Shown here one piece after another: positions 5,001 to 54,700 of a stretch of 54,700 nucleotides of DNA; the first letter of the stretch is position 1, and each line of letters opens with the position of its first letter. A program made the translations under genes and the position numbers. The notes under the pieces are model-generated. The model did not search any database, was not told where the DNA came from, and saw only the letters and a list, made by a program, of their open reading frames with translations. Source of the DNA: a virus; IMG/VR virus record IMGVR_UViG_3300028897_000119, positions 1 through 54,700 of that record, one strand, 5' to 3'.

Positions 5001-5445
5001 AACCGCGCCGATCAAGGTCTCGCACCGCCAGCGATTCAAGATCATCAAGGAGGCCATTGGCTGTCTGCCTTGCGCCTGTGTCGGCTACCTCGATGTGCAT
5101 ACGAGCATCGAGCATGTCACCGATGCGGGGCGCCGCCTTGAGGGCGAACACGATGCGACGATAGGGCTATGCGCATGGCACCACTTCGGCACTTGTCACC
5201 CTGGAAGAACTCGGCAGTGGATGTCCGGCGAATTCGGGCCTAGCCTTGCTTGGGGCCGGCGAGTGTTCGAGGAGCACTTCGGCGACGAGGTCACGGTGCT
5301 GCTACCCTTGCAGGATCTCGTCATCGGCTGGTACTTGGAGTCGCCGTGGCCTGACTATACAATGCCCCGGAACATTGCCCGCAAGCTGCGAATAGAATGG
5401 ATCGAGCTGAATCATGCCTACACTACACGGTCGAGCGAAGCGTAA
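4990..5445 (+). CDS. Ref-like RecA-dependent nuclease (HNH superfamily)
   Basis: A 151-residue protein; ATG 4990 is chosen because GGGGAG lies 8 bases upstream and longer versions read through the preceding small gene. The motif series C25-x2-C28-x-C30, IEHV (H42), GEH (H54), C61AWHH65 and C69H70 matches the P1 Ref family, whose HNH-type fold cuts DNA only when RecA filament is present. A role in targeted double-strand breaks or stimulation of RecA recombination follows from the family. The neighbouring helicase, DUF1064 and the ERF/YqaJ pair elsewhere in the genome form one recombination set. Confidence 0.85.
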   Translation: MVGKTAPIKVSHRQRFKIIKEAIGCLPCACVGYLDVHTSIEHVTDAGRRLEGEHDATIGLCAWHHFGTCHPGRTRQWMSGEFGPSLAWGRRVFEEHFGDEVTVLLPLQDLVIGWYLESPWPDYTMPRNIARKLRIEWIELNHAYTTRSSEA

Positions 5446-5533
5446 AGAAAAATCCGCTGTTTCCCCGCCTCGCCTTGATTTGTGGAGATTTCATCAGAAT
5501 TCGGGACCGGAACTCGGTGCCGGAGAGGTTTGA
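5414..5533 (+). CDS. Possible tiny basic ORF (39 aa)
   Basis: ATG 5414 inside the end of the Ref gene opens 39 codons to TGA 5531-5533. The N-terminus is basic (MPTLHGRAKRKEK). The ribosome site is weak and no homologue is recognised. It fills the gap to the gene at 5540, which is the main argument for it; it may equally be chance. Confidence 0.35.
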   Translation: MPTLHGRAKRKEKSAVSPPRLDLWRFHQNSGPELGAGEV

Positions 5534-5539
5534 TCGCCT

Positions 5540-5869
5540 ATGTCAAAGATGGGTCGAGGACCAGCCGCCAAGATAGACGCGCCTCGCGATCTGCCGAGCG
5601 GCATTCCCTGGGTGCAATGGCGGGTCGAGAATGAGGACGAGATCGCGCGGTTCCTTGAGGGCTTCGAGGTCCGTATGCGGCCGGCTCCGGGGAATCAATT
5701 GCTGATTCAGGGCCGCTATCATCGCTGGTCGCTACAACTCAGCCCCGGCGACTGCCTCGTGCTACAGCCTGCCTCGGCTGAGTACCCGCGCGAGCGGCTC
5801 GGGCTCGTCCGTGTGCCCGAGTCCGCAAAGTTCCGCGAGTCAGAGAACCCCGAGGACTTCCGCTTCTAG
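5540..5869 (+). CDS. Unknown protein (109 aa), last gene of the plus-strand early block
   Basis: A 109-residue protein whose core, GIPWVQWRVENEDEIARFLEGFEVRMRPAPG then LLIQGRYHRWSLQLSPGDCLVL, looks like a compact beta-rich fold and resembles hypothetical proteins of other phages. The ribosome site is GAGAGG, 13 bases upstream. Its last 30 bases overlap the converging minus-strand HTH gene (5840-6043), so the two blocks run into each other with no intergenic terminator visible. Confidence 0.7.
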   Translation: MSKMGRGPAAKIDAPRDLPSGIPWVQWRVENEDEIARFLEGFEVRMRPAPGNQLLIQGRYHRWSLQLSPGDCLVLQPASAEYPRERLGLVRVPESAKFRESENPEDFRF

Positions 5870-6043
5870 CGTGAATTGCACGGCGTAGGGAAAGCGGCGG
5901 TCGCCGGCGATCCACATGCGAATAGCCCGCTCCGAGCAGCCAAGTATTTCCTCGGCCACTTGGCGCTGAGTCTTGCCAGTGCTGGCGATTAGCTGGCGCA
6001 GGTACTCAGGATCGGGATTGTATTCGGCCGGATTGGGTTTCAC
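5840..6043 (-). CDS. Small HTH protein (Cro/YdaS-like)
   Basis: A 67-residue protein whose segment TGKTQRQVAEEILGCSERAIRMWIAGDRRFPYAV is a classical helix-turn-helix, typical of YdaS/Cro-like phage regulators that bind operator DNA as dimers. It starts at GTG (6043-6041), overlapping the upstream stop, with GGGAGG upstream. It is the promoter-distal gene of the minus-strand block, an unusual place for a master regulator, so it may act late in early infection. Its 3' end overlaps the convergent plus-strand gene. Confidence 0.75.
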   Translation of the reverse strand: MKPNPAEYNPDPEYLRQLIASTGKTQRQVAEEILGCSERAIRMWIAGDRRFPYAVQFTLEAEVLGVL

Positions 6044-6267
6044 CGCGCCTCCCTTGCGGCCTGCCGCCTTGCCATATATTCGAGCACCGGGACCGGCAGA
6101 CTACGCCACTCGACGGCCAGCGCGTCGAGCAGGTATTGCCGGCCCTCGGCGGCCGTCTCGGAGTATTCCGAGTCCGGCGGCCATAGGCAGCTAATGGTTT
6201 CGATGGCGTCTACTCGGCGCCGGTCAAGCTCGCGACGGTCGTCGCAGTGGTGGCAACAATTGCTCAT
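6040..6267 (-). CDS. Unknown small protein with N-terminal Cys/His cluster (75 aa)
   Basis: A 75-residue protein beginning MSNCCHHCDDRRELDRRR, a compact Cys/His cluster that could bind a metal, followed by an acidic helix and an Arg-rich C-terminus. ATG 6267 follows AGGAGG. It overlaps its upstream neighbour by ATGA and its downstream neighbour by GTGA, so translation is tightly coupled. No family recognised. Confidence 0.65.
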   Translation of the reverse strand: MSNCCHHCDDRRELDRRRVDAIETISCLWPPDSEYSETAAEGRQYLLDALAVEWRSLPVPVLEYMARRQAAREAR

Positions 6268-10391: not shown

Positions 10392-11336
10392 TCAGATAAG
10401 GGCAAGCTGTACCGGCTCGGCCAGCGGCTCGGCCGCCCGCCTCGCGACGCTTGCGACGCCGCCCCACTGGTCGGCCATCGCGCGCGCTATGCCGGCAAAG
10501 AATCGGCTCCGCTTGTGGCCTCGGTCGTCGCTCGGGCCCATACGGTCGGCGCCGCATGGCGACTGATTCGCCCACCGCTTAACCGGCTTGCCCTTGTAGG
10601 TGTCGAGGCGGGGCGCGACATAGTCGGCGGGGTCCGCTTCGAGCTTGGGCAGGCCGTGCAACCATAGGCCGGTTTTCTTGCTGTGGTCGTGGCCGTACTC
10701 GTAGGGCTGCACGTATTGGTCGGCCGGCCGTATCTCGGTGCCGATGCAGCCCACCGGATTTTCAAGCGCCCACCGCTCGACCGGCGCCGCCATGAGATCG
10801 CGGACAAAGTCGAGCGCCTCGATACGCTTGGCCTCGCGCTCGGGGTCACGCTGGCAGCGCCAAAGCTGGCAGGCGGCGAGGTAGGTACAGGGTGGGTGGA
10901 AAATGGCGAGGTGGTAGCCGTCGCCGATAATGTCCCGAACGTCGCCGGTGTAGTGCTGCCCCTCCGGCGACTCGGTCGGCAGGATGTCGCAGCTTGTGGC
11001 GTCGTGGCCGGCGGCCGCGAAAGCATCGCGGACAGTGCCCGAGAATTCGCAGCCGACGAGTACGCGGCTCAGGTGGTAGCCGCTGGCGCTGGCGCGCTCC
11101 TCGGCCGCTGCGATCTCGTCGCCATAGTCGGCGATCGACTCGGCGCCGGGGCGCTGCGTATAGACCGCCTCGGCGAGTAGCTCGCCGGTGTCGATGTAGT
11201 CGGCGGCCACGGCGTCGCCGTTTCGCACGTTGAGAAGCTGCGAGGCGGTCAGTGCGGCCCGCACGGCTGCCGAGTAGTCGGCAGCCAAGCGGGTCACGTT
11301 CAGCCGGTCCAGTCGAATCAGGCGGCCGCTGGTCAT
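10392..11336 (-). CDS. Cytosine-DNA-methylase-like protein with unknown N-terminal extension
   Basis: A 314-residue protein starting at ATG 11336 (GGAGGCGAAGCA upstream, ATGA overlap with the preceding gene). Residues about 91-300 match phage DNA C5-methylase-like proteins: SAM-loop-like VLVGCEFSG at 92-100, CDILP near 116, HPPCTYLA with the PC pair at 149-150, and ENPVG at 192-196. A target-recognition domain as in bacterial enzymes is not evident. The first ~90 residues are an extra domain I do not recognise. If active it would methylate phage DNA against host restriction, but many phage members of this family have unproven activity. Adjacent genes include an HNH-associated module. Confidence 0.75.
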   Translation of the reverse strand: MTSGRLIRLDRLNVTRLAADYSAAVRAALTASQLLNVRNGDAVAADYIDTGELLAEAVYTQRPGAESIADYGDEIAAAEERASASGYHLSRVLVGCEFSGTVRDAFAAAGHDATSCDILPTESPEGQHYTGDVRDIIGDGYHLAIFHPPCTYLAACQLWRCQRDPEREAKRIEALDFVRDLMAAPVERWALENPVGCIGTEIRPADQYVQPYEYGHDHSKKTGLWLHGLPKLEADPADYVAPRLDTYKGKPVKRWANQSPCGADRMGPSDDRGHKRSRFFAGIARAMADQWGGVASVARRAAEPLAEPVQLALI

Positions 11337-11749
11337 TGCTTCGCCTCCACGTTGCGGCGTACCTGCGTCGCGTTGTACTCGGCGGCGTCGGCAGCATAGG
11401 CGCGCTCGGCGCTGCGGCGGTCAAGCTCGGCGCGCATGGCGTCCCTGAGTGCCCGCTGATAGTTGGGCAGGCAGCGATAGCCGTGGCCGTCCATTGTCAT
11501 CGCCTTGTCGCCGCCAGCCATATCGGCATGGCAGGCGCTCGCGTTCATCAGCTTGGCCTCAATGCTTCCCCGGCTGCGGCCGGCTAGTGGTCCGGTATCG
11601 CCGGGGCCGTTGCTGCGGCTGATATGGCGAATCATGGCGGCCTTGTTGTAGTCCTCGCGGCGCCGGACTCGGTCGAGCATGTCGAAGTAAAGGCGGCAAA
11701 GCGCAAGATTCTCGGCAGCCGTCCAAGGGGTGCGTTTCGTGACAGTCAT
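11333..11749 (-). CDS. HNH-nuclease-associated module, stand-alone (138 aa)
   Basis: First gene of the minus-strand block, from ATG 11749 behind ACGCGAGGACC. Residues 8-110 read TPWTAAENLALCRLYFDMLDRV...KAAMIRHIS...RSRGSIEAKLMNASACHADM...DGHGYRCLPNYQRAL. From memory, the same order (WT..E...Y..ML, RS.GSIE.K..N.SA, GY.P..N.Q..L) forms the N-terminal domain of many bacterial HNH endonucleases and restriction-linked proteins. Here it is alone, without an HNH motif. It may bind DNA or recognise modified DNA; that is inference. The final third is an Ala/Arg-rich helix. Confidence 0.6.
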   Translation of the reverse strand: MTVTKRTPWTAAENLALCRLYFDMLDRVRRREDYNKAAMIRHISRSNGPGDTGPLAGRSRGSIEAKLMNASACHADMAGGDKAMTMDGHGYRCLPNYQRALRDAMRAELDRRSAERAYAADAAEYNATQVRRNVEAKQ

Positions 11750-11838: not shown

Positions 11839-11902
11839 GGGATGTCAAGCGGCTAGGCTGAGGAGTAGAATTCCCGGCAATCCGGCAGGCATAGGGTGCA
11901 TT

Positions 11903-12556
11903 ATGCAAAACACTGACGCGCAAACGAAAACCGACCCGGCAGGCAGCAACTCACACAAGGGAGGGAGACCCACCACCTACCGGGAAAGCGTCGGCGCTCT
12001 TATCTGCGCGCGGCTCAGCGAGGGCGAAACACTGACCGAAATATGCAGGACACCGGGAATGCCAGCACGGCAAACGGTCCACCAGTGGCGGCGCCGATTT
12101 CCGCAATTCGACGACGATTACATGCGCGCGCGGGCCGATGGCATGGAGTCAATGGCCGATGAGCTACTGACGATAGCGGACGACGACACCGGCGACCTAC
12201 TGCCGGACGGCTCGCCGAATCACGCCAACGTCGGCCGTGCCCGCCTCATGGTGGACGCTCGCAAGTTCCTCATGTCGAAGCTGTCGCCCCGGTACGCCGA
12301 CAAGGTGGAGCACCAGCACACCGGGGCAGTGGCGCACCTCGTGACCCTCGACGACCGGGAGCGTATGCGCCGGCTCGCCTCGTTCATGCTTGAGGACCAG
12401 CGCGCCGGGGCCTTGATCGAGGGGCAGGCCGGCCGACTGCATAATGCAGCCGAGGAGGGCAGCCAAGCCGGCGACCCTGCCCGCCCCACCTCGGAGGGCG
12501 AACCGCAGCCGGGGGCAATGAGTAAGGACAGCGACGGCGATGGCGATGGATCGTGA
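11903..12556 (+). CDS. terS: Terminase small subunit, Sf6-like
   Basis: A 217-residue protein from ATG 11903 (AGGG upstream; the start lies within a palindrome). It carries the Sf6-type order: GGRPTTYRESVGALICARLSEGETLTEICRTPGMPARQTVHQWRRRFPQFDDDYMRAR (DNA-binding helices), then ADELLTIADDDTGD, then VGRARLMVDARKFLMSKLSPRYADK, which is typical of small terminases that form a ring and select the packaging site. The C-terminal tail is acidic and low complexity (EEGSQAGD...DSDGDGDGS). It recruits TerL and marks the start of headful packaging, which fits the permuted ends. Confidence 0.9.
   Translation: MQNTDAQTKTDPAGSNSHKGGRPTTYRESVGALICARLSEGETLTEICRTPGMPARQTVHQWRRRFPQFDDDYMRARADGMESMADELLTIADDDTGDLLPDGSPNHANVGRARLMVDARKFLMSKLSPRYADKVEHQHTGAVAHLVTLDDRERMRRLASFMLEDQRAGALIEGQAGRLHNAAEEGSQAGDPARPTSEGEPQPGAMSKDSDGDGDGS
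12432..12453. repeat. 22-bp palindromic repeat, copy inside terS
   Basis: A near-identical copy of 9213-9234 (21 of 22 bases), centred on TGCATAATGCA (12438-12448). It lies near the 3' end of terS, a place where P22/Sf6-like phages may carry pac-type signals, so it is a candidate TerS site. Confidence 0.65.
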
Positions 12557-36503: not shown

Positions 36504-36730
36504 GTAGCCACTATGAAAGCTCTCATTACGGTGCAAGCCACTACCTGTCGAGCCACTTCGGCAGGACTGGTGTCACGCCGCCGGTGCCGCCGATCACGCC
36601 TGAGCCTACCTACCCGCCGGGGATGGGGGAGGCTGAGCAGCTCAGGCATAGGCGTATATTGCAAGAGGACGAGCTGCTCATCGCACTGGTGACGGCGTTC
36701 CTTGATGTGAAGGACAACGATGGCGGTTAG
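36500..36730 (+). CDS. SSHY-repeat small protein (76 aa)
   Basis: A 76-residue protein whose N-terminus is four tandem copies of a five-residue unit (SSHYE, SSHYG, ASHYL, SSHFG), then a Pro-rich linker (VTPPVPPITPEPTYPPGM) and an acidic helix. Such His/Tyr repeats could bind metal or stack aromatically; I recall similar SSHY-start proteins beside phage appendage genes. It overlaps both neighbours, so synthesis is coupled to the giant protein that follows. Confidence 0.7.
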   Translation: MSSHYESSHYGASHYLSSHFGRTGVTPPVPPITPEPTYPPGMGEAEQLRHRRILQEDELLIALVTAFLDVKDNDGG

Positions 36731-39700
36731 GGACTGCATACGCAAACTCGAGGCGGCTGGCTACAAGGTCAGTGACCGCGACAAGCGGTTGCTCGAGCAG
36801 TGGGTCCGCGACGGCCTAAGCGATACGCAGGCCGTCAATCGGATGCTGGCAATGGCTGAGTTCGATGTCGTTGACATCGCCAGTCGTGCGCGCGATCGCG
36901 GTGCCGAGATCCGCAAGCGTCCTGATGTCCTGGGCGAGATCCGCGAGTACCGGGAGGGCCAGCTCAAGCAATTGCGCAAAGATCTCGCTGCCGTGCAAAA
37001 GGAGTCCCGCGAGCTCGACATTCAGTACGGCGATATTCAGTGGATCAAGGACACGGTGAAGCACTGGACGCCGCTGAATCCTGATACCGAGCGAGGCGCG
37101 CCGATCGTCGGTGCCGGCCCGTTCGAGGGCATGGATCCTCCGGTAGATCTCAACGATGATCTCGCGCTGCAGAATCGCCTGAGCGCCATGCTGTTCGCCA
37201 ATCCCGATATGTGGACAAAGGGGCAGATGGCCGGCGGCCTGCTCCGTGGCAATAGCCCGCGCGAGCTGTTCAACAACTTCCGCAAGATGGAGGAGCAGCA
37301 GCGGAAGATCAGGGATCGACTGCGCGAGCTGCGTCCGCAGGAGGCGGCGCTGGTCGATCAGATCGACGAGATGACCGGCCAGCGGCCGAACCAGTTTTAC
37401 CAGTCCACGGATCTCGGTTTTTACTCGGCCGTCGAGGTAGCGGTGCGCACCATGCCGATGCCGAAGGGTGACGCAAAGACGGTCCTGGGCTGGTTGCAGA
37501 AGCAACCGGGAGTCACGGCCGATGAGATCACTTGGCTGCAGATCCCCGAGTACCTCGATCTCATGGAGAACGTCACGCGCGAGGAGCTGCTCGATTACGT
37601 GCGCGCCAATGGCGTTGTCGTTGAGGAAATTCAGCAGGGCGGTGGTCAGCAGATTCAGCCGAGCCTTGATGCGCAGCCGGCACCATACGATTTCGCGGCT
37701 GAGAAATGGGAGGTCGATTTCGATGACGTCATGGACGGTCGCATCGAGATATGGGATGTAACCGAGCGCGAGACTGGCCACGTTTTTGAGGTGCTGGTCG
37801 ATCACGACGCCGGCAACGTCGCGGTTCGCAATGAGCAGGATGGCGAGTTTCTGCCGATCGACGCACCGATCAACAAGCAAGACTTCGACGATGCGATGGC
37901 CGCCATCGAGAAGCATTACCTCGGTCTCGATCCTGCCGGCACATTCGATGCGCCGGCTTCAATCAACGAGGACCAGACGCTCGGCGGCGGTCGTAACTAT
38001 CGCGAGATCATCCTCAAGCTGCCCGAGGTGCAGGAAGCGCAGATTCTCTACACCGGCGAATTCAAGGGCGCCGGCATGGGATCAGCCGAGCTGCGTAATG
38101 CAGTCGTGCAAAAGGCGCTGAGCCGCAAGATCGAGATGCGACTGGTTGAGGCCAGCGACGGCTACGAGCGATGGATGTTCAATGGCCTGCTCGAGAAGGA
38201 CGTCGATTGGTTCATGCGGGCAATGGGCGACTACGGTCTGCGGTTCGAGTTCAAGCGCGAATACTCAATGACCGACGCGGAAGTGAATCCGGTCGGGATG
38301 CAGCAGAATTACGATTTCAGCCACTTCGACTATCCGAACATCATGGGATGGGCGAGGGTCAAGGACCGCATCGGCCCGAACGGCGAGAAGATCCTGTTCA
38401 TCGAGGAGATTCAATCGGATCTCCACCAGCGCGGTCGCAAGCGTGGCTACCGTGAGGGCATCCCGCCGGCGCCGAATTTCGTCGTCGGTCAGGATGAGTT
38501 TCAGTGGATCGCCCTGGACCCCAAGACTGGTGAGCAGATCTATTACGGCACGAATCAAAGCGGCCAGCCGAGCAAGATGTCAGTCGGCAAAGGTGCGGTC
38601 GCTGACCAGTTCGAGGCTGAGGTCTACCTGCAGCGACTCATTCACGGCAAGCACAAGGAGATGGTCGATGCGCAGATCGACGCCGTGCCTGATGCGCCAT
38701 TCAAGAACAACAAGTGGGTCGATCTCGTTCTGAAACGCATGGTCAGGCTGGCAGCCGAGCAAGGCTACGATCAGGTCGCATGGACGACTGGCGAGACTCA
38801 GGTCATTCGCAATTCGCTGGCTACCTACGCCGACGAGGTGCAGTACAACTGGGTCAAAGAGGAGCTCAAGGTCTACTCGAAGGACAGCGAGGGACGCATA
38901 GGGCTCAACTTCTCGGAGACGGTGCCGCGCGCCAAGCTGGCAACGTATGTCGGATCCGAGATGGCTCAGATGCTTGAAACCGAGCAGCGCAAGCGTTTCG
39001 AGAACAATCTCGAGCGCGGCACCATTCAGGTAATGACCGGCCGGGAATACCTCGAGCAGACCGGCGGCATGATTCGCTTCCCCGAGATGGATAAGGGTGA
39101 GCCGGCGGCGGCTGATATTGGGCAGCAGCTATGGGGTGATCCGGCACGGCCGTTCCTCGATGCCTATGTCGTTGTGCAGCACGGCGACACGATTCAGCGC
39201 AACCAAGCCATGCACGATCTGATGGTGTTCGCTGACAAAGATAAGGCCATGCGTGAGGCCGAGCATCACTTCAACTACCAGTATCCTGTGACGCTGACCG
39301 GCGATGATATGCAGGTCAAGGGCTGGCCGATGCGCAACTTCTACGACAAGACGGTGCCGCAGCAGCTCCGCAAGATTGTCAAGAAGCTCGACCGCGACGC
39401 GAAAGTGCGACTCAACGGCCAGCAGGTACGCACCAAGGATGGCGAGCCATTCCGGCTCGACACGGTCTTGGATCACGCGCGCTACAAGAACACGAATGGC
39501 CAGTGGTCTCGGACCACGACCAAGGTGCCGCAGTATTACATCCTCGATCGTGACGGCCGCCGGCGCGCTGGTCCGTTCGATACCAGTGACGTCGCTCAGG
39601 CGAAGCTCGACGAGTACAACGGCGAGCAAGAGATCGTTCATGTCATGGATCTGACCAACAAGATCCGCAACAACGTAATGAACGGTCAGCAGCTCTTTCA

Positions 39701-42700
39701 GGGCAAGCGCGGCTCGATCACGTTCAACAATGCCCGCCAGGGTGTCATCCGTCTCTACGAGTCGCACAACCTATCGACGTTCATTCACGAGGCCGGCCAT
39801 CTCTATCTCGAGATCATGGGATCGCTGGCGTCGAGGGCTGACTCGCCGCAGCAGATCAAGGATGACTGGCAGACGATCCTCGATTATCTCGGCGTTGACA
39901 GCTATCACGAGATCACGCGCGAGCACCATGAGAAGTGGGCCGAGTCATTCGAGGCTTACACGATGGAGGGCAAGGCACCGAGCATCAAGCTGCGGGATGC
40001 CTTCAACGCATTCCGCTCATGGCTGCTCAACGTGTACCGCACCATTCGCGGCGGCCCCAAGGCGCAGGTACTCACGCCGGAGATCCGTGGCGTCATGGAC
40101 CGGATGCTGGCGAGCGATGAGGAAATCGCGATCGCCGAGAATCATCAAGAGTACGCCTCGCTGTTTATGACGCAGGAGGAGTCCGGCATGTCGCCGGAAG
40201 CCTACGCGGTGTATCGCAATGAGCTGGTGCGCGCCCACAACGAGGGCGTCGAGAAGGAACACCAGACGGTGCTGCAGGCGCTCAAGCGTGAGTCGATGGC
40301 ATGGTGGAAGCACGAGCGCGAAAAGGTGCGCGCCGAGGTCGAGACCGAAGCTCACGAGATGCGCGTCTACAAGGCGCTGTTTATGCTGCAGCGCGGGACG
40401 CAGCCGGATGGCAGTGCGCCGACGATGTCGCCGTTCAAGATCAACAAGCAATCGCTGCTCGATCTGCTCGGCCCTGACCAGACGTTTCTCAACCAGCTCC
40501 CGAGGCCGTGGGTGTACGCGGCCAAGGGTGGCGTCGATGTGAATGAGGCGGCCAGGATCTTCGGCTACCGGGATGCTCACGCCATGATGAACGAGCTGGC
40601 CAGTGCTCCGAAGATGACCGATTGGATCGAGGCTGAGACCGATGTCCGTATGCGGCAGCGGTATCCCGACCCGCTGCATGACGGCACACTGTCTGAGACG
40701 GCCCTCAAGGCGGTCCACAACGAGCGCAGGGCGAATGTACTGATGACCGAGCTGCGGCAGCTACGGGCCCTGCAGCGTCGCGACAGGGGCATTGTGAGGG
40801 CTACCGAGCGCCGTATTGCCCGCGAGGAGCGTCAGGCCAAGGCGGCGAACCGTGGCATCCTGCCGAAGCGGGCCGAGCTGGCAGCGATCAAGGCCGGCGC
40901 CAAGGAAGCCATAGGCCGGCGTCGTGTGCGTGAGGTGAAGCCGCATATCTACCTCGCAGCCGAGCGCAAGGCGGCACGGCAGGCATTCGAGGCAGCGACC
41001 CGCAAGGATTGGGAGGCGGCCTACAACTTCAAGCGGCAGCAGATCATCAATCACGAGATGTATCGTGCAGCCGTGCGCGCCGAGGCCGAGATGACCAAGG
41101 CGCGGAACTATCTCGCGAAATTCGAGAAGCCTCGCAAGCGGCAGCAGATGGGCAAGGCTGGTTTCCTCGATCAGATCGACGCGGTCCTCGAGGGCGTAGA
41201 TCTGCGCAAGAAGTCGCTGTCTCAGGTCGATCGCGAGGAGCGTCTCAAGGATCTCCGCGACATGGTCGAGGACGGTCGCATGATCGTGACGCCGGAGACG
41301 CTGGCGAAGATTGTCGATGAGACGGTCAACTGGCAGCAGCTCACGGTCGAGGAGATGCGCGGCCTGCGGGATGTCGTCAAGCAGCTTGAGCACATGGCCA
41401 AGCAGGCCGAGATGAACAATTACCTCGTCAACGGCGAGACGCTGAATCTCGATGATGTGGCTGTGGAGCTCGAGGCATCGGTGCTCGAGAACAATACCGA
41501 GATCGCGCTGCACGGTGGCCACAAGACCAAGAAACAGGGCGTCGTCAAGGCGAAGGATCAGGCGATCACCAACTGGTTGCGGCCGAGCTCGATCGCGAGG
41601 GTGCTCGACAAGGCTGGCTTTGGGGCCGTGTCGCGCTACATCATCGTGCCGCTCAGGCGGGCCTACTCCGAGCGATTGATTCCGGCGCTGCACAAGGCGC
41701 AGGAGGATGTGTCAGGGATCTACCTCAAGCACTACAGCACCAAGGATCTCGCCAAGCTCCACAAGAAAAACATCACGATCGAGTCGCAGGGCGTCACTTA
41801 CAGCAAGGCTGATGCAATCGCGGTGGCGCTCAATTGGGGCAACGAGGGCAATCGCCGCGCGCTCCTGGGCGGCGTACTCGACAACGGTCAGCTTGCGTAT
41901 CCCGAGCCTGTAGCGCGCCAGCTTCTCGCGCAGCTCAGCGAGAAGGATTGGGCATTCGTGCAGGATGTGTGGGATTACATCGACACCTACTGGAAGGATC
42001 TCAGCGAGGCCGAGCAGCGCCGGCGTGGCATTGCGCCATCAAAGGTCGAGGGTCAGCCGTTTCAGATACGCACCGCCGATGGCAAACAGATCACTGTGCG
42101 CGGCGGCTACTACCCGCTGATGTACGATCACGAGCTGTCGGATCGCGTCAAACAGGACAGCCTCGAGGACATCTACAAGAAGCTCGGCACTGGCGTCTAC
42201 GTGTCAGCGAGCACTCGTGCCGGCGCTACGCACGAGCGCACACGCCAGCAAGGTCTTGTTGTCAGGCTCGATCTCAATGTCATCGACATCCACTTGCGCG
42301 AGATCATTCGCGACATCGCAATCGGCGATGAGGTCAATTTCGTCAAGCGGATCCTGAATGACCGCAGGTTCCGCTCCGCGATGAAACGCACCGGCAACAA
42401 TGAGGCGCTCAAGTCGCTGAACCTGTGGCTGACTGATGCAGCCGTGGGTGAGATGCCGGCGCAGAATATCTACCAGAAGGGCGCGCGGTGGATCCGTGGC
42501 GGCTTCACCAAGTCACGGCTTGGCCTGAACCTGCTCGTCACGGCGCTGCAGTGGACCGGCTTTTTCCAGTCGATCGCGTTTGTCGGCACCAAGGGCATGA
42601 TGATGGGTGTCGGCAAATTCATGCAGAACCCCGCGAAATGGTGGAACTACGTCAGCGAGAGCAGTGACTTCATTCGGACTCGCTACGATGTAGGCGCATG

Positions 42701-43532
42701 GCACAAGGATGTGCAGGACGTCGATGCGCACCTCAATGCGTGGTTCGGGGCAGCCCCGACGATCGCCAAGGAGACCATGACGCGGATCAGCTACGGTCTA
42801 TTCCTGCCGATCAAGTACGCGCAGAAGGTGGTCGATGTCATTACGTGGCTCGGTGCTTACGAGAAAGCGCGCAATGTCGATGGCGAGAATCACCAGCAGT
42901 CAGTGCTCATGGCTGATGCGGCCGTCGAGGGCGCGCAGACTTCCGGCTTTTTCACGGATCGCTCGAACATCGAGCGCGGCACCCTGAGCGAGAACACGCG
43001 GCAGGCTGAGTACATCCGAATCTGGACGACGCTCATTGGCTACATGCTGGCCAAGGGCAACATCGCCTACGAGAAAACTAAGAACACGAATTTCAGGAAG
43101 CCGTCGCAGATCTTGTACTGGTCGATGGACATGATCTTGCTGTTCACGGTTGAGGGCATTGCCAGCTATCTGCTCTACGGCAGGCTGCCGGAGGAGGATG
43201 ACGAGGGCGACGAGCTCAAGCGGTGGGCGAAATGGACGGCGGCCGCCACGGCAGACTCGATAGTCAGCGGCATCCCGTTCGTGCGCGAGATCCCGAGTCA
43301 GCGGTATGGCAGCGGCAGCACTCCAATCGGTGCATTCGCCAAGGATCTGTTCAACGTGTGGGTGCAGGCCGAGCAGGGTGAGGCCGACGAGGCTCTGCGC
43401 AAGGCCCTGGTCAATGCGGTTGGCACGGCCACTCACTTGCCGTCATCGCAGACCAATCGGGTGCTCGATGCAATTTGGGACGAGGACGACACGGAGCTAT
43501 TGGAGTACATTACAGGCCCCAAGGATGATTAA
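36720..43532 (+). CDS. Giant polyvalent virion protein with HEAGH zincin-like motif and LPD38-like C-terminus (2270 aa)
   Basis: The largest gene. N-terminal ~100 residues are coiled coil. Around 555-580, ILFIEEIQSDLHQRGRKRGY, and around 675-690, GYDQVAWTTGETQ, are signature blocks of phage large polyvalent proteins. A zincin-like metalloprotease motif HEAGH stands at 1023-1027, followed by EKWAESFEAYTMEGKAPS, which may give the third ligand. Residues 1200-1650 are very charged helices. About 2060-2270 (TSGFFTDRSNIERGTLSENTRQAEYIRIWTTLIGYMLAKGNIAYEK, then SMDMILLFTVEGIASYLLYGRLP) matches the LPD38 membrane-active end. It is probably carried in the capsid and injected, acting on host proteins and membrane. 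Confidence 0.85.
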   Translation: MAVRDCIRKLEAAGYKVSDRDKRLLEQWVRDGLSDTQAVNRMLAMAEFDVVDIASRARDRGAEIRKRPDVLGEIREYREGQLKQLRKDLAAVQKESRELDIQYGDIQWIKDTVKHWTPLNPDTERGAPIVGAGPFEGMDPPVDLNDDLALQNRLSAMLFANPDMWTKGQMAGGLLRGNSPRELFNNFRKMEEQQRKIRDRLRELRPQEAALVDQIDEMTGQRPNQFYQSTDLGFYSAVEVAVRTMPMPKGDAKTVLGWLQKQPGVTADEITWLQIPEYLDLMENVTREELLDYVRANGVVVEEIQQGGGQQIQPSLDAQPAPYDFAAEKWEVDFDDVMDGRIEIWDVTERETGHVFEVLVDHDAGNVAVRNEQDGEFLPIDAPINKQDFDDAMAAIEKHYLGLDPAGTFDAPASINEDQTLGGGRNYREIILKLPEVQEAQILYTGEFKGAGMGSAELRNAVVQKALSRKIEMRLVEASDGYERWMFNGLLEKDVDWFMRAMGDYGLRFEFKREYSMTDAEVNPVGMQQNYDFSHFDYPNIMGWARVKDRIGPNGEKILFIEEIQSDLHQRGRKRGYREGIPPAPNFVVGQDEFQWIALDPKTGEQIYYGTNQSGQPSKMSVGKGAVADQFEAEVYLQRLIHGKHKEMVDAQIDAVPDAPFKNNKWVDLVLKRMVRLAAEQGYDQVAWTTGETQVIRNSLATYADEVQYNWVKEELKVYSKDSEGRIGLNFSETVPRAKLATYVGSEMAQMLETEQRKRFENNLERGTIQVMTGREYLEQTGGMIRFPEMDKGEPAAADIGQQLWGDPARPFLDAYVVVQHGDTIQRNQAMHDLMVFADKDKAMREAEHHFNYQYPVTLTGDDMQVKGWPMRNFYDKTVPQQLRKIVKKLDRDAKVRLNGQQVRTKDGEPFRLDTVLDHARYKNTNGQWSRTTTKVPQYYILDRDGRRRAGPFDTSDVAQAKLDEYNGEQEIVHVMDLTNKIRNNVMNGQQLFQGKRGSITFNNARQGVIRLYESHNLSTFIHEAGHLYLEIMGSLASRADSPQQIKDDWQTILDYLGVDSYHEITREHHEKWAESFEAYTMEGKAPSIKLRDAFNAFRSWLLNVYRTIRGGPKAQVLTPEIRGVMDRMLASDEEIAIAENHQEYASLFMTQEESGMSPEAYAVYRNELVRAHNEGVEKEHQTVLQALKRESMAWWKHEREKVRAEVETEAHEMRVYKALFMLQRGTQPDGSAPTMSPFKINKQSLLDLLGPDQTFLNQLPRPWVYAAKGGVDVNEAARIFGYRDAHAMMNELASAPKMTDWIEAETDVRMRQRYPDPLHDGTLSETALKAVHNERRANVLMTELRQLRALQRRDRGIVRATERRIAREERQAKAANRGILPKRAELAAIKAGAKEAIGRRRVREVKPHIYLAAERKAARQAFEAATRKDWEAAYNFKRQQIINHEMYRAAVRAEAEMTKARNYLAKFEKPRKRQQMGKAGFLDQIDAVLEGVDLRKKSLSQVDREERLKDLRDMVEDGRMIVTPETLAKIVDETVNWQQLTVEEMRGLRDVVKQLEHMAKQAEMNNYLVNGETLNLDDVAVELEASVLENNTEIALHGGHKTKKQGVVKAKDQAITNWLRPSSIARVLDKAGFGAVSRYIIVPLRRAYSERLIPALHKAQEDVSGIYLKHYSTKDLAKLHKKNITIESQGVTYSKADAIAVALNWGNEGNRRALLGGVLDNGQLAYPEPVARQLLAQLSEKDWAFVQDVWDYIDTYWKDLSEAEQRRRGIAPSKVEGQPFQIRTADGKQITVRGGYYPLMYDHELSDRVKQDSLEDIYKKLGTGVYVSASTRAGATHERTRQQGLVVRLDLNVIDIHLREIIRDIAIGDEVNFVKRILNDRRFRSAMKRTGNNEALKSLNLWLTDAAVGEMPAQNIYQKGARWIRGGFTKSRLGLNLLVTALQWTGFFQSIAFVGTKGMMMGVGKFMQNPAKWWNYVSESSDFIRTRYDVGAWHKDVQDVDAHLNAWFGAAPTIAKETMTRISYGLFLPIKYAQKVVDVITWLGAYEKARNVDGENHQQSVLMADAAVEGAQTSGFFTDRSNIERGTLSENTRQAEYIRIWTTLIGYMLAKGNIAYEKTKNTNFRKPSQILYWSMDMILLFTVEGIASYLLYGRLPEEDDEGDELKRWAKWTAAATADSIVSGIPFVREIPSQRYGSGSTPIGAFAKDLFNVWVQAEQGEADEALRKALVNAVGTATHLPSSQTNRVLDAIWDEDDTELLEYITGPKDD

Positions 43533-54461: not shown

Positions 54462-54628
54462 AAGATCCCGACAAGATGAGCATGTCCGAGCTGCGCCGTG
54501 TGGCCAAGGCCGCCAAGCGCGTACTCAAATGCAGCGGCTACGGTGGTTGGGATCTGCAGGATGCTTACGCGAAGCTGCGGCGCGAATTCGAGGACGAGGA
54601 GGACCGCCGTGCCGCTACACGTTCCTGA
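54458..54628 (+). CDS. Unknown small basic protein (56 aa), complete copy
   Basis: ATG 54458 overlaps the previous stop (ATGA). The 56 codons end at TGA 54626-54628. The sequence is basic and helical (SELRRVAKAAKRVLKCSGYGG, then DAYAKLRREFEDEEDRRAATRS). The gene crosses the point where the window's ends overlap; its last 72 bases appear again at 1-72. Confidence 0.7.
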   Translation: MKDPDKMSMSELRRVAKAAKRVLKCSGYGGWDLQDAYAKLRREFEDEEDRRAATRS

Positions 54629-54700
54629 CTGGTGCGAGAAGCACCGCGTACAGTTGCGCGGCTATCCGATTGGCGACAAGCAAAACGGCGCATTCCATTT
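54557..54700. repeat. Right copy of 144-bp terminal redundancy
   Basis: Identical to 1-144. Joining the ends gives an uninterrupted circle of 54,556 bp with intact genes across the join. Confidence 0.95.
54609..54700 (+). CDS. 5' part of DUF7694-like protein (repeat of 53-144)
   Basis: GTG 54609 corresponds to GTG 53 of the window start; only the first 30 codons are present before the window ends. The full gene is described at 53-394. Confidence 0.8.
   Translation, partial: MPLHVPDWCEKHRVQLRGYPIGDKQNGAFH

Follow-up and report, generated by a model that had tools for sequence, protein, structure and literature searches.

A conserved phage gene pair encoding a predicted cytosine-C5 methyltransferase and a stand-alone domain of candidate defense nucleases: a possible two-subunit methyltransferase

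Why would a phage keep a DNA methylase gene directly behind a gene for a domain that, in bacteria, stands at the head of nuclease proteins? The question is raised by a viral record 54,700 bases long (the window, that is, the whole stretch of DNA analyzed here), which carries a 144-nt direct terminal repeat at positions 1 to 144 and 54557 to 54700, a sign that the assembly may be complete and circularly closed. Nearly the same sequence is present in GenBank/GTDB as contig LJVB01000001.1 (54,650 bases), which is binned as Acidithiobacillales bacterium SM1_46: the small protein encoded by the first gene of the pair is found there at 100% identity, and all but one of the sampled DNA stretches of that contig match the window. 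Upstream of the pair, the terminase small subunit gene is followed on the plus strand by the gene for the large subunit; the neighbors on the other side, one of which was scanned against families, are short, unnamed, and not conserved across contigs. No nuclease is encoded within the pair itself, the terminase being its neighbor on one side. Elsewhere, the window encodes a 2270-aa protein (36720 to 43532) with a C-terminal half that matches phrog_9880, a family of unknown function (E = 3e-274), a Ref-like RecA-dependent nuclease (PF16786; 4837 to 5445), and an ERF-family annealing protein (PF04404; 52947 to 53777).

Table 1. Coordinates of the gene pair, its predicted parts, and the adjacent terminase gene in the window
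Feature	Position	Strand	Description or basis
Small gene, first of the pair	11333..11749	-	138 aa; stand-alone PDC-S36-type N-terminal domain, predicted all-helical
Methylase gene, second of the pair	10392..11336	-	314 aa; predicted two-domain DNA cytosine methyltransferase
ATGA overlap, small-gene stop and methylase start	11333..11336	-	Read from sequence
GGAGG, Shine-Dalgarno-like, for the methylase	11344..11348	-	Within the small gene, 7 nt upstream of the methylase start codon
N-terminal helical domain of the methylase, residues 6-90	11067..11321	-	Profile scans and predicted helices
Catalytic C5-methyltransferase domain (predicted)	10458..11066	-	phrog_757, 75-sequence alignment, AlphaFold, Foldseek
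Motif IV PPC (P148, C150), predicted catalytic cysteine	10887..10895	-	Invariant in 75 sequences
Motif VI ENP (E192-P194)	10755..10763	-	Invariant in 75 sequences
Small-protein core motif, residues 58-72 (RSRGSIEAKLMNASA)	11534..11578	-	Most of predicted helix 3
Terminase small subunit gene, Sf6-type	11894..12556	+	Divergent from the pair; synteny in 19/22 paired contigs

The two genes, which had been singled out by a first-pass annotation, are both real and lie where that annotation had placed them, overlapping by ATGA. Chance ORFs can be ruled out because both genes are conserved in other contigs, at 36 to 53% and 51 to 66% identity. The overlap between the stop codon of the small gene and the start codon of the methylase gene probably couples the translation of the two.

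The methylase was classified by a family profile search, in which residues 89 to 303 matched phrog_757 ("DNA methyltransferase"; E = 3e-53); no Pfam or NCBIfam family was matched at or above its cut-off. Across 75 homologs, C96-E97, S115-C116-D117, P148-x-C150, E192-N193-P194, K220, and T222 are invariant. The P-x-C and E-N motifs are catalytic signatures of cytosine-C5 enzymes, and they occur in the methylase in the expected C5 order, PC before EN. Structural modeling with AlphaFold (pLDDT 92.6) predicts a Rossmann-type fold of the DNA cytosine-C5 methyltransferase kind, with DNMT3B, DNMT1, and DNMT3A as the top Foldseek matches (E down to 4e-6, probability 1.00) at low TM scores, 0.3 to 0.4, that are partly due to the extra N-terminal domain. 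In a profile comparison with M.HhaI, the methylase HPPC aligned to GFPC, albeit weakly (E = 0.056). The region that corresponds to the target-recognition domain of M.HhaI lies between the last core strands and the final helix and comprises at most about 40 residues in the methylase; a stretch this short is general among phrog_757 members. Read together, the model and the alignment suggest that a target-recognition domain is small or missing in the catalytic domain.

The N-terminal region of the methylase, of roughly 90 residues and previously left unassigned, turned out to be a conserved helical domain of ∼88 residues that carries no Pfam name. Four confident helices (14-28, 31-38, 50-61, and 68-84) are predicted by AlphaFold within residues 1 to 88, and the core LDVTRLAADxSxxxR is almost invariant in the alignment of members, 9 of 24 of which show a weak match to the unnamed phrog_21393 (best E = 2e-5). 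When 2.9 million viral contigs were scanned with this domain alone, it was recovered in 30 contigs, in each of them as part of the methylase and with the small gene upstream; no other fusion was found in this set. The domain therefore appears to be confined to methylases that are paired with the small gene.

The small protein matches the PADLOC model PDC-S36, a model also matched by all 22 of its aligned relatives. Full-length PDC-S36 proteins consist of the small-protein domain followed by NOV_C (PF13020, formerly DUF3883), and DUF3883 has been described as an REase domain (PMC3710099). In the small protein, the match is limited to positions 3 to 109 of 280 (E = 2e-14); the protein ends after the N-terminal domain and has no C-terminal NOV_C/DUF3883, so that the initial description of the gene as lacking the nuclease is upheld. 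An HNH motif was likewise not detected by Pfam, and this absence, along with the conserved stand-alone length, rules out a truncated HNH nuclease. The AlphaFold model of the small protein (pLDDT 94.5) contains helices at 11-29, 36-44, 60-77, and 99-137. Residues R58, S62, I63, E64, K66-N69, and A72 are invariant among the relatives of the small protein; across the phage and the bacterial, nuclease-fused forms of the domain, W9, Y21, M24, R58, and N69 are invariant, and E13, K36, E64, G90, and Y91 are nearly so. Fold searches with the model produced no significant structural match, the second-ranked hit, to the C-terminal (Myb-type) domain of TBF1 (E = 3.4, probability 0.23), being a lead at most. 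A profile search of the PDB gave chance matches only, no HsdS-family specificity match was found in Pfam or NCBIfam, and the protein is not notably basic. The fusion of its domain to nucleases nevertheless suggests that the small protein binds DNA.

To place the small protein among its bacterial relatives, 398 genomes of the phylum to which the MAG holding the phage belongs were surveyed. The domain is present in 28 of these, one of which is the phage of the window itself. The fusion partner in this phylum-wide sample is NOV_C/DUF3883 in about 22 of 27 cases and HNH in 5, with partners confirmed by Pfam in ten bacterial proteins. Thus, the first-pass annotation was right that HNH fusions exist, but these are a minority and not, as it had stated, the normal arrangement. 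The sequences show that the small domain and the bacterial nuclease proteins share ancestry; the pair may have been derived from a host restriction system. With respect to phrog_757, the bacterial PDC-S36-type genes are almost always solitary. A NOV_C-fused domain protein that is divergent from a phrog_757 methylase (genome G033; L207:7552-9336) is the sole such adjacency among about 60 loci, a lead rather than a pattern, and the idea that bacterial PDC-S36 proteins generally act as the nuclease partners of phrog_757 methylases in R-M pairs was therefore rejected. No paper on PDC-S36 was found in the literature searched.

The first-pass annotation had suggested that the two genes function together and should co-occur in other genomes. 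Scans with the small gene identified 38 viral contigs, which form 29 clusters at 90% identity, with a median identity of 46% among 27 representatives clustered at 80%. The methylase is adjacent in 32 of the contigs, and two more end at the methylase start, with either the beginning of the methylase or the ATGA left. Together with the N-terminal domain contigs, all 30 of which carry both genes, this total of 34 of 38 bears out the expected conservation of the pair. The remaining four contigs (L014, L022, L024, and L025) have no methylase nearby. In L014, a contig of 29.5 kb that contains no phrog_757 methylase, the small-gene relative (5001 to 6145) overlaps the gene behind it, which encodes an unknown phage protein of 273 aa. 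In all paired contigs, the methylase start codon lies within 11 nt of the small-gene stop, at -1 in most of them, and most show an ATGA- or GTGA-type overlap. A reversed order was found in L124 (4231 to 5321), where a methylase without the N-terminal domain comes first and is followed by the small gene, again overlapping by ATGA. Conversely, most phrog_757 methylases have no small-gene partner, and solitary ones are common in phages: at the 80 loci recovered by a methylase scan, the N-terminal domain and the small gene were both present in 10 and both absent from the available DNA in 70. No small gene was detected in the collection of sequenced named phages that was searched, even at an E value of 10. 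Overall, the evidence from sequence supports well a pairing that is not due to chance but is conserved and, in all likelihood, translationally coupled. In small Arthrobacter phages (L126:2175-3151 and L129:2298-3115), the phrog_757 methylase overlaps an upstream small HNH or helix-turn-helix gene by 4 nt, so phrog_757 methylases may be coupled repeatedly to small DNA-binding proteins of other kinds.

Because a homolog of the terminase small subunit neighbors the pair in 19 of 22 paired contigs, with changing genes on the other side, much of this co-occurrence reflects the inherited synteny of one diverse lineage. In two contigs, L011 and L019, the terminase context is a different one, and the pair is kept. 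Covariation was examined by comparing distances, with permutation P values, across the 16 loci for which all parts were available. Distances of the small protein correlate with those of the N-terminal domain once the large and small terminase subunits and the catalytic domain are controlled for (partial r = 0.34, P = 0.002); no such correlation is seen with the catalytic domain (0.15, P = 0.12) or with the terminase small subunit (-0.03). With 23 loci and no terminase term, the partial correlation is 0.41 (P = 0.0003) for the N-terminal domain, and a weaker effect appears for the catalytic domain (0.24, P = 0.016). This pattern fits an N-terminal domain that serves as the docking site of the small protein, although linked recombination or DNA adjacency could contribute to it.

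Restriction pressure on this lineage is apparent from the composition of the DNA. In the window, 42 of the 64 palindromic hexamers are wholly absent. For 24 of these hexamers, a set chosen from the window itself, each with an expectation of at least 5, none was observed versus 330 expected, whereas the remaining palindromic hexamers occur at expectation (832 observed versus 874 expected), uniformly along the genome. Single hexamers such as GTCGAC (0 observed versus 31 expected) are decisive on their own, and the GenBank copy displays the same avoidance (0 versus 47). Also absent from the window are GCCNGGC (0 observed, 52 expected), GATNNNNATC (0 and 24), GGCGGA (0 and 37), GCACGC (0 and 32), and CACGTC (0 and 23). 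Ten related pair-bearing genomes each lack 4 to 21 palindromes with an expectation of at least 8, the sets differing among genomes; in the comparison set, 3 to 7 palindromes are fully absent from four other viral contigs, 1, 3, and 8 from three named phages, and none from three bacterial stretches. Avoidance of restriction sites as such is well known in phages, and the pair-bearing lineage is at its strong end. Given such strong purging, an anti-restriction role, or the DNA-marking function that had been proposed for the pair from the outset, is plausible. The hexamers GGATCC, CTGCAG, CTCGAG, and GCCGGC escape purging in all 11 of the pair-bearing genomes; an attempt to deduce the methylase target from surviving palindromes was set aside as no more than suggestive, the controls being too few and the test post hoc.

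We propose, at a probability of roughly 45%, that the pair is a two-subunit phage C5-methyltransferase in which the small protein recognizes or regulates sites and docks on the N-terminal domain, and which marks DNA against restriction. The catalytic subunit would be a short phrog_757 C5-methyltransferase whose own target-recognition domain is much reduced or lacking. The small protein, which represents as a separate chain the domain found at the front of NOV_C- and HNH-type nuclease proteins, would be translated from the same message as the methylase and coupled to it. It probably binds DNA, selects or regulates the sites to be methylated, and forms a complex by docking on the helical domain peculiar to paired methylases, and the resulting methylation would mark the phage DNA as protected from host restriction. 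In its more specific and more tentative form, the proposal is that the recognition domain of a bacterial nuclease family acts here as a separate specificity subunit that can be swapped; it would serve a methylase without a target-recognition domain and be held in place by the docking domain. Several observations count against a two-subunit enzyme: the small protein is without marked basic character, fold searches with it gave no significant match, synteny is shared, four contigs lack an adjacent methylase, and phrog_757 enzymes are mostly partnerless.

Comparison with known systems shows which parts of this arrangement are familiar. The phrog_757 methyltransferases of Rhizobium phage Pasto, Burkholderia phage Bcep1 (gp12), and Prochlorococcus phage P-SSP7 (gp12) share the catalytic domain, its motifs, and its size, but the usual members of this family, unlike the paired methylase, have neither the N-terminal helical domain nor a coupled partner gene. 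The small protein has the same domain and core residues as PDC-S36 and its HNH-fused relatives, from which it differs by insertions between helices 2 and 3 and after helix 3, and by having a phage methylase partner in place of a nuclease domain. M.HhaI, DNMT3, and DNMT1 resemble the methylase in fold and in the order of motifs I, IV, and VI; the methylase differs from them in its catalytic domain of about 210 residues, the short stretch at the target-recognition position, and the extra N-terminal domain. Finally, the separate catalytic and putative recognition subunits encoded by overlapping genes recall Type I EcoKI HsdM/HsdS, and hsdM/hsdS provides an earlier case of M and S subunits whose translation is coupled (PMC3510504). 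Unlike a Type I system, however, the pair has a predicted cytosine-C5 rather than adenine-N6 catalytic subunit, no HsdS match, and no R subunit.

Other explanations are compatible with part of the evidence. The small protein could be a decoy that imitates the domain at the front of host NOV_C/HNH nucleases and so takes up either the DNA sites or the partner surface of these enzymes, while the methylase masks sites independently, the two forming an anti-defense cassette without a complex. A nuclease-less copy of the nuclease front domain with the same core residues is what such a decoy would look like, and the relatives that it would mimic are defense candidates and fairly common in the phylum surveyed. 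We consider this explanation unlikely: it does not account for the restriction of the N-terminal domain to paired methylases or for the covariation of this domain with the small protein, and no PDC-S36 nuclease was seen in the draft genome of the MAG holding the phage.

Control of packaging or expression is less probable still. Dam methylation at the pac sites of phage P1 licenses packaging, and methylation together with binding of the small protein might similarly license DNA for packaging or regulate the shared intergenic region, as the prevalent divergent terminase neighbor, next to a changing other side, would suggest; yet the pair is kept in L011 and L019 despite their different terminase context and in L124 in reversed order. 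It is about as improbable that the two genes are functionally independent neighbors in one phage lineage, the methylase being an ordinary solitary phrog_757 enzyme. Shared synteny and the abundance of solitary phrog_757 methylases in phages speak for independence, but the start/stop overlap, the lineage-wide retention at about 46% identity, the confinement of the N-terminal domain to paired enzymes, the separate arrangement in L124, and the specific covariation all speak against it.

Each half of the pair belongs to a known family, and no description of their combination with a dedicated N-terminal domain was found in the literature searched. In C5-methyltransferases, specificity normally resides in one chain. 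If the two-subunit proposal is correct, the pair would be a natural split C5-methyltransferase with a small recognition subunit common to nucleases, and would offer a testable model for self-marking by phages with parts that they have in common with bacterial nucleases. It would also provide a route to what is recognized by the domain at the front of the PDC-S36/NOV_C and HNH defense candidates, which are widespread. Because the phage lineage that carries the pair is under visible restriction pressure, the question of counter-defense is directly testable.
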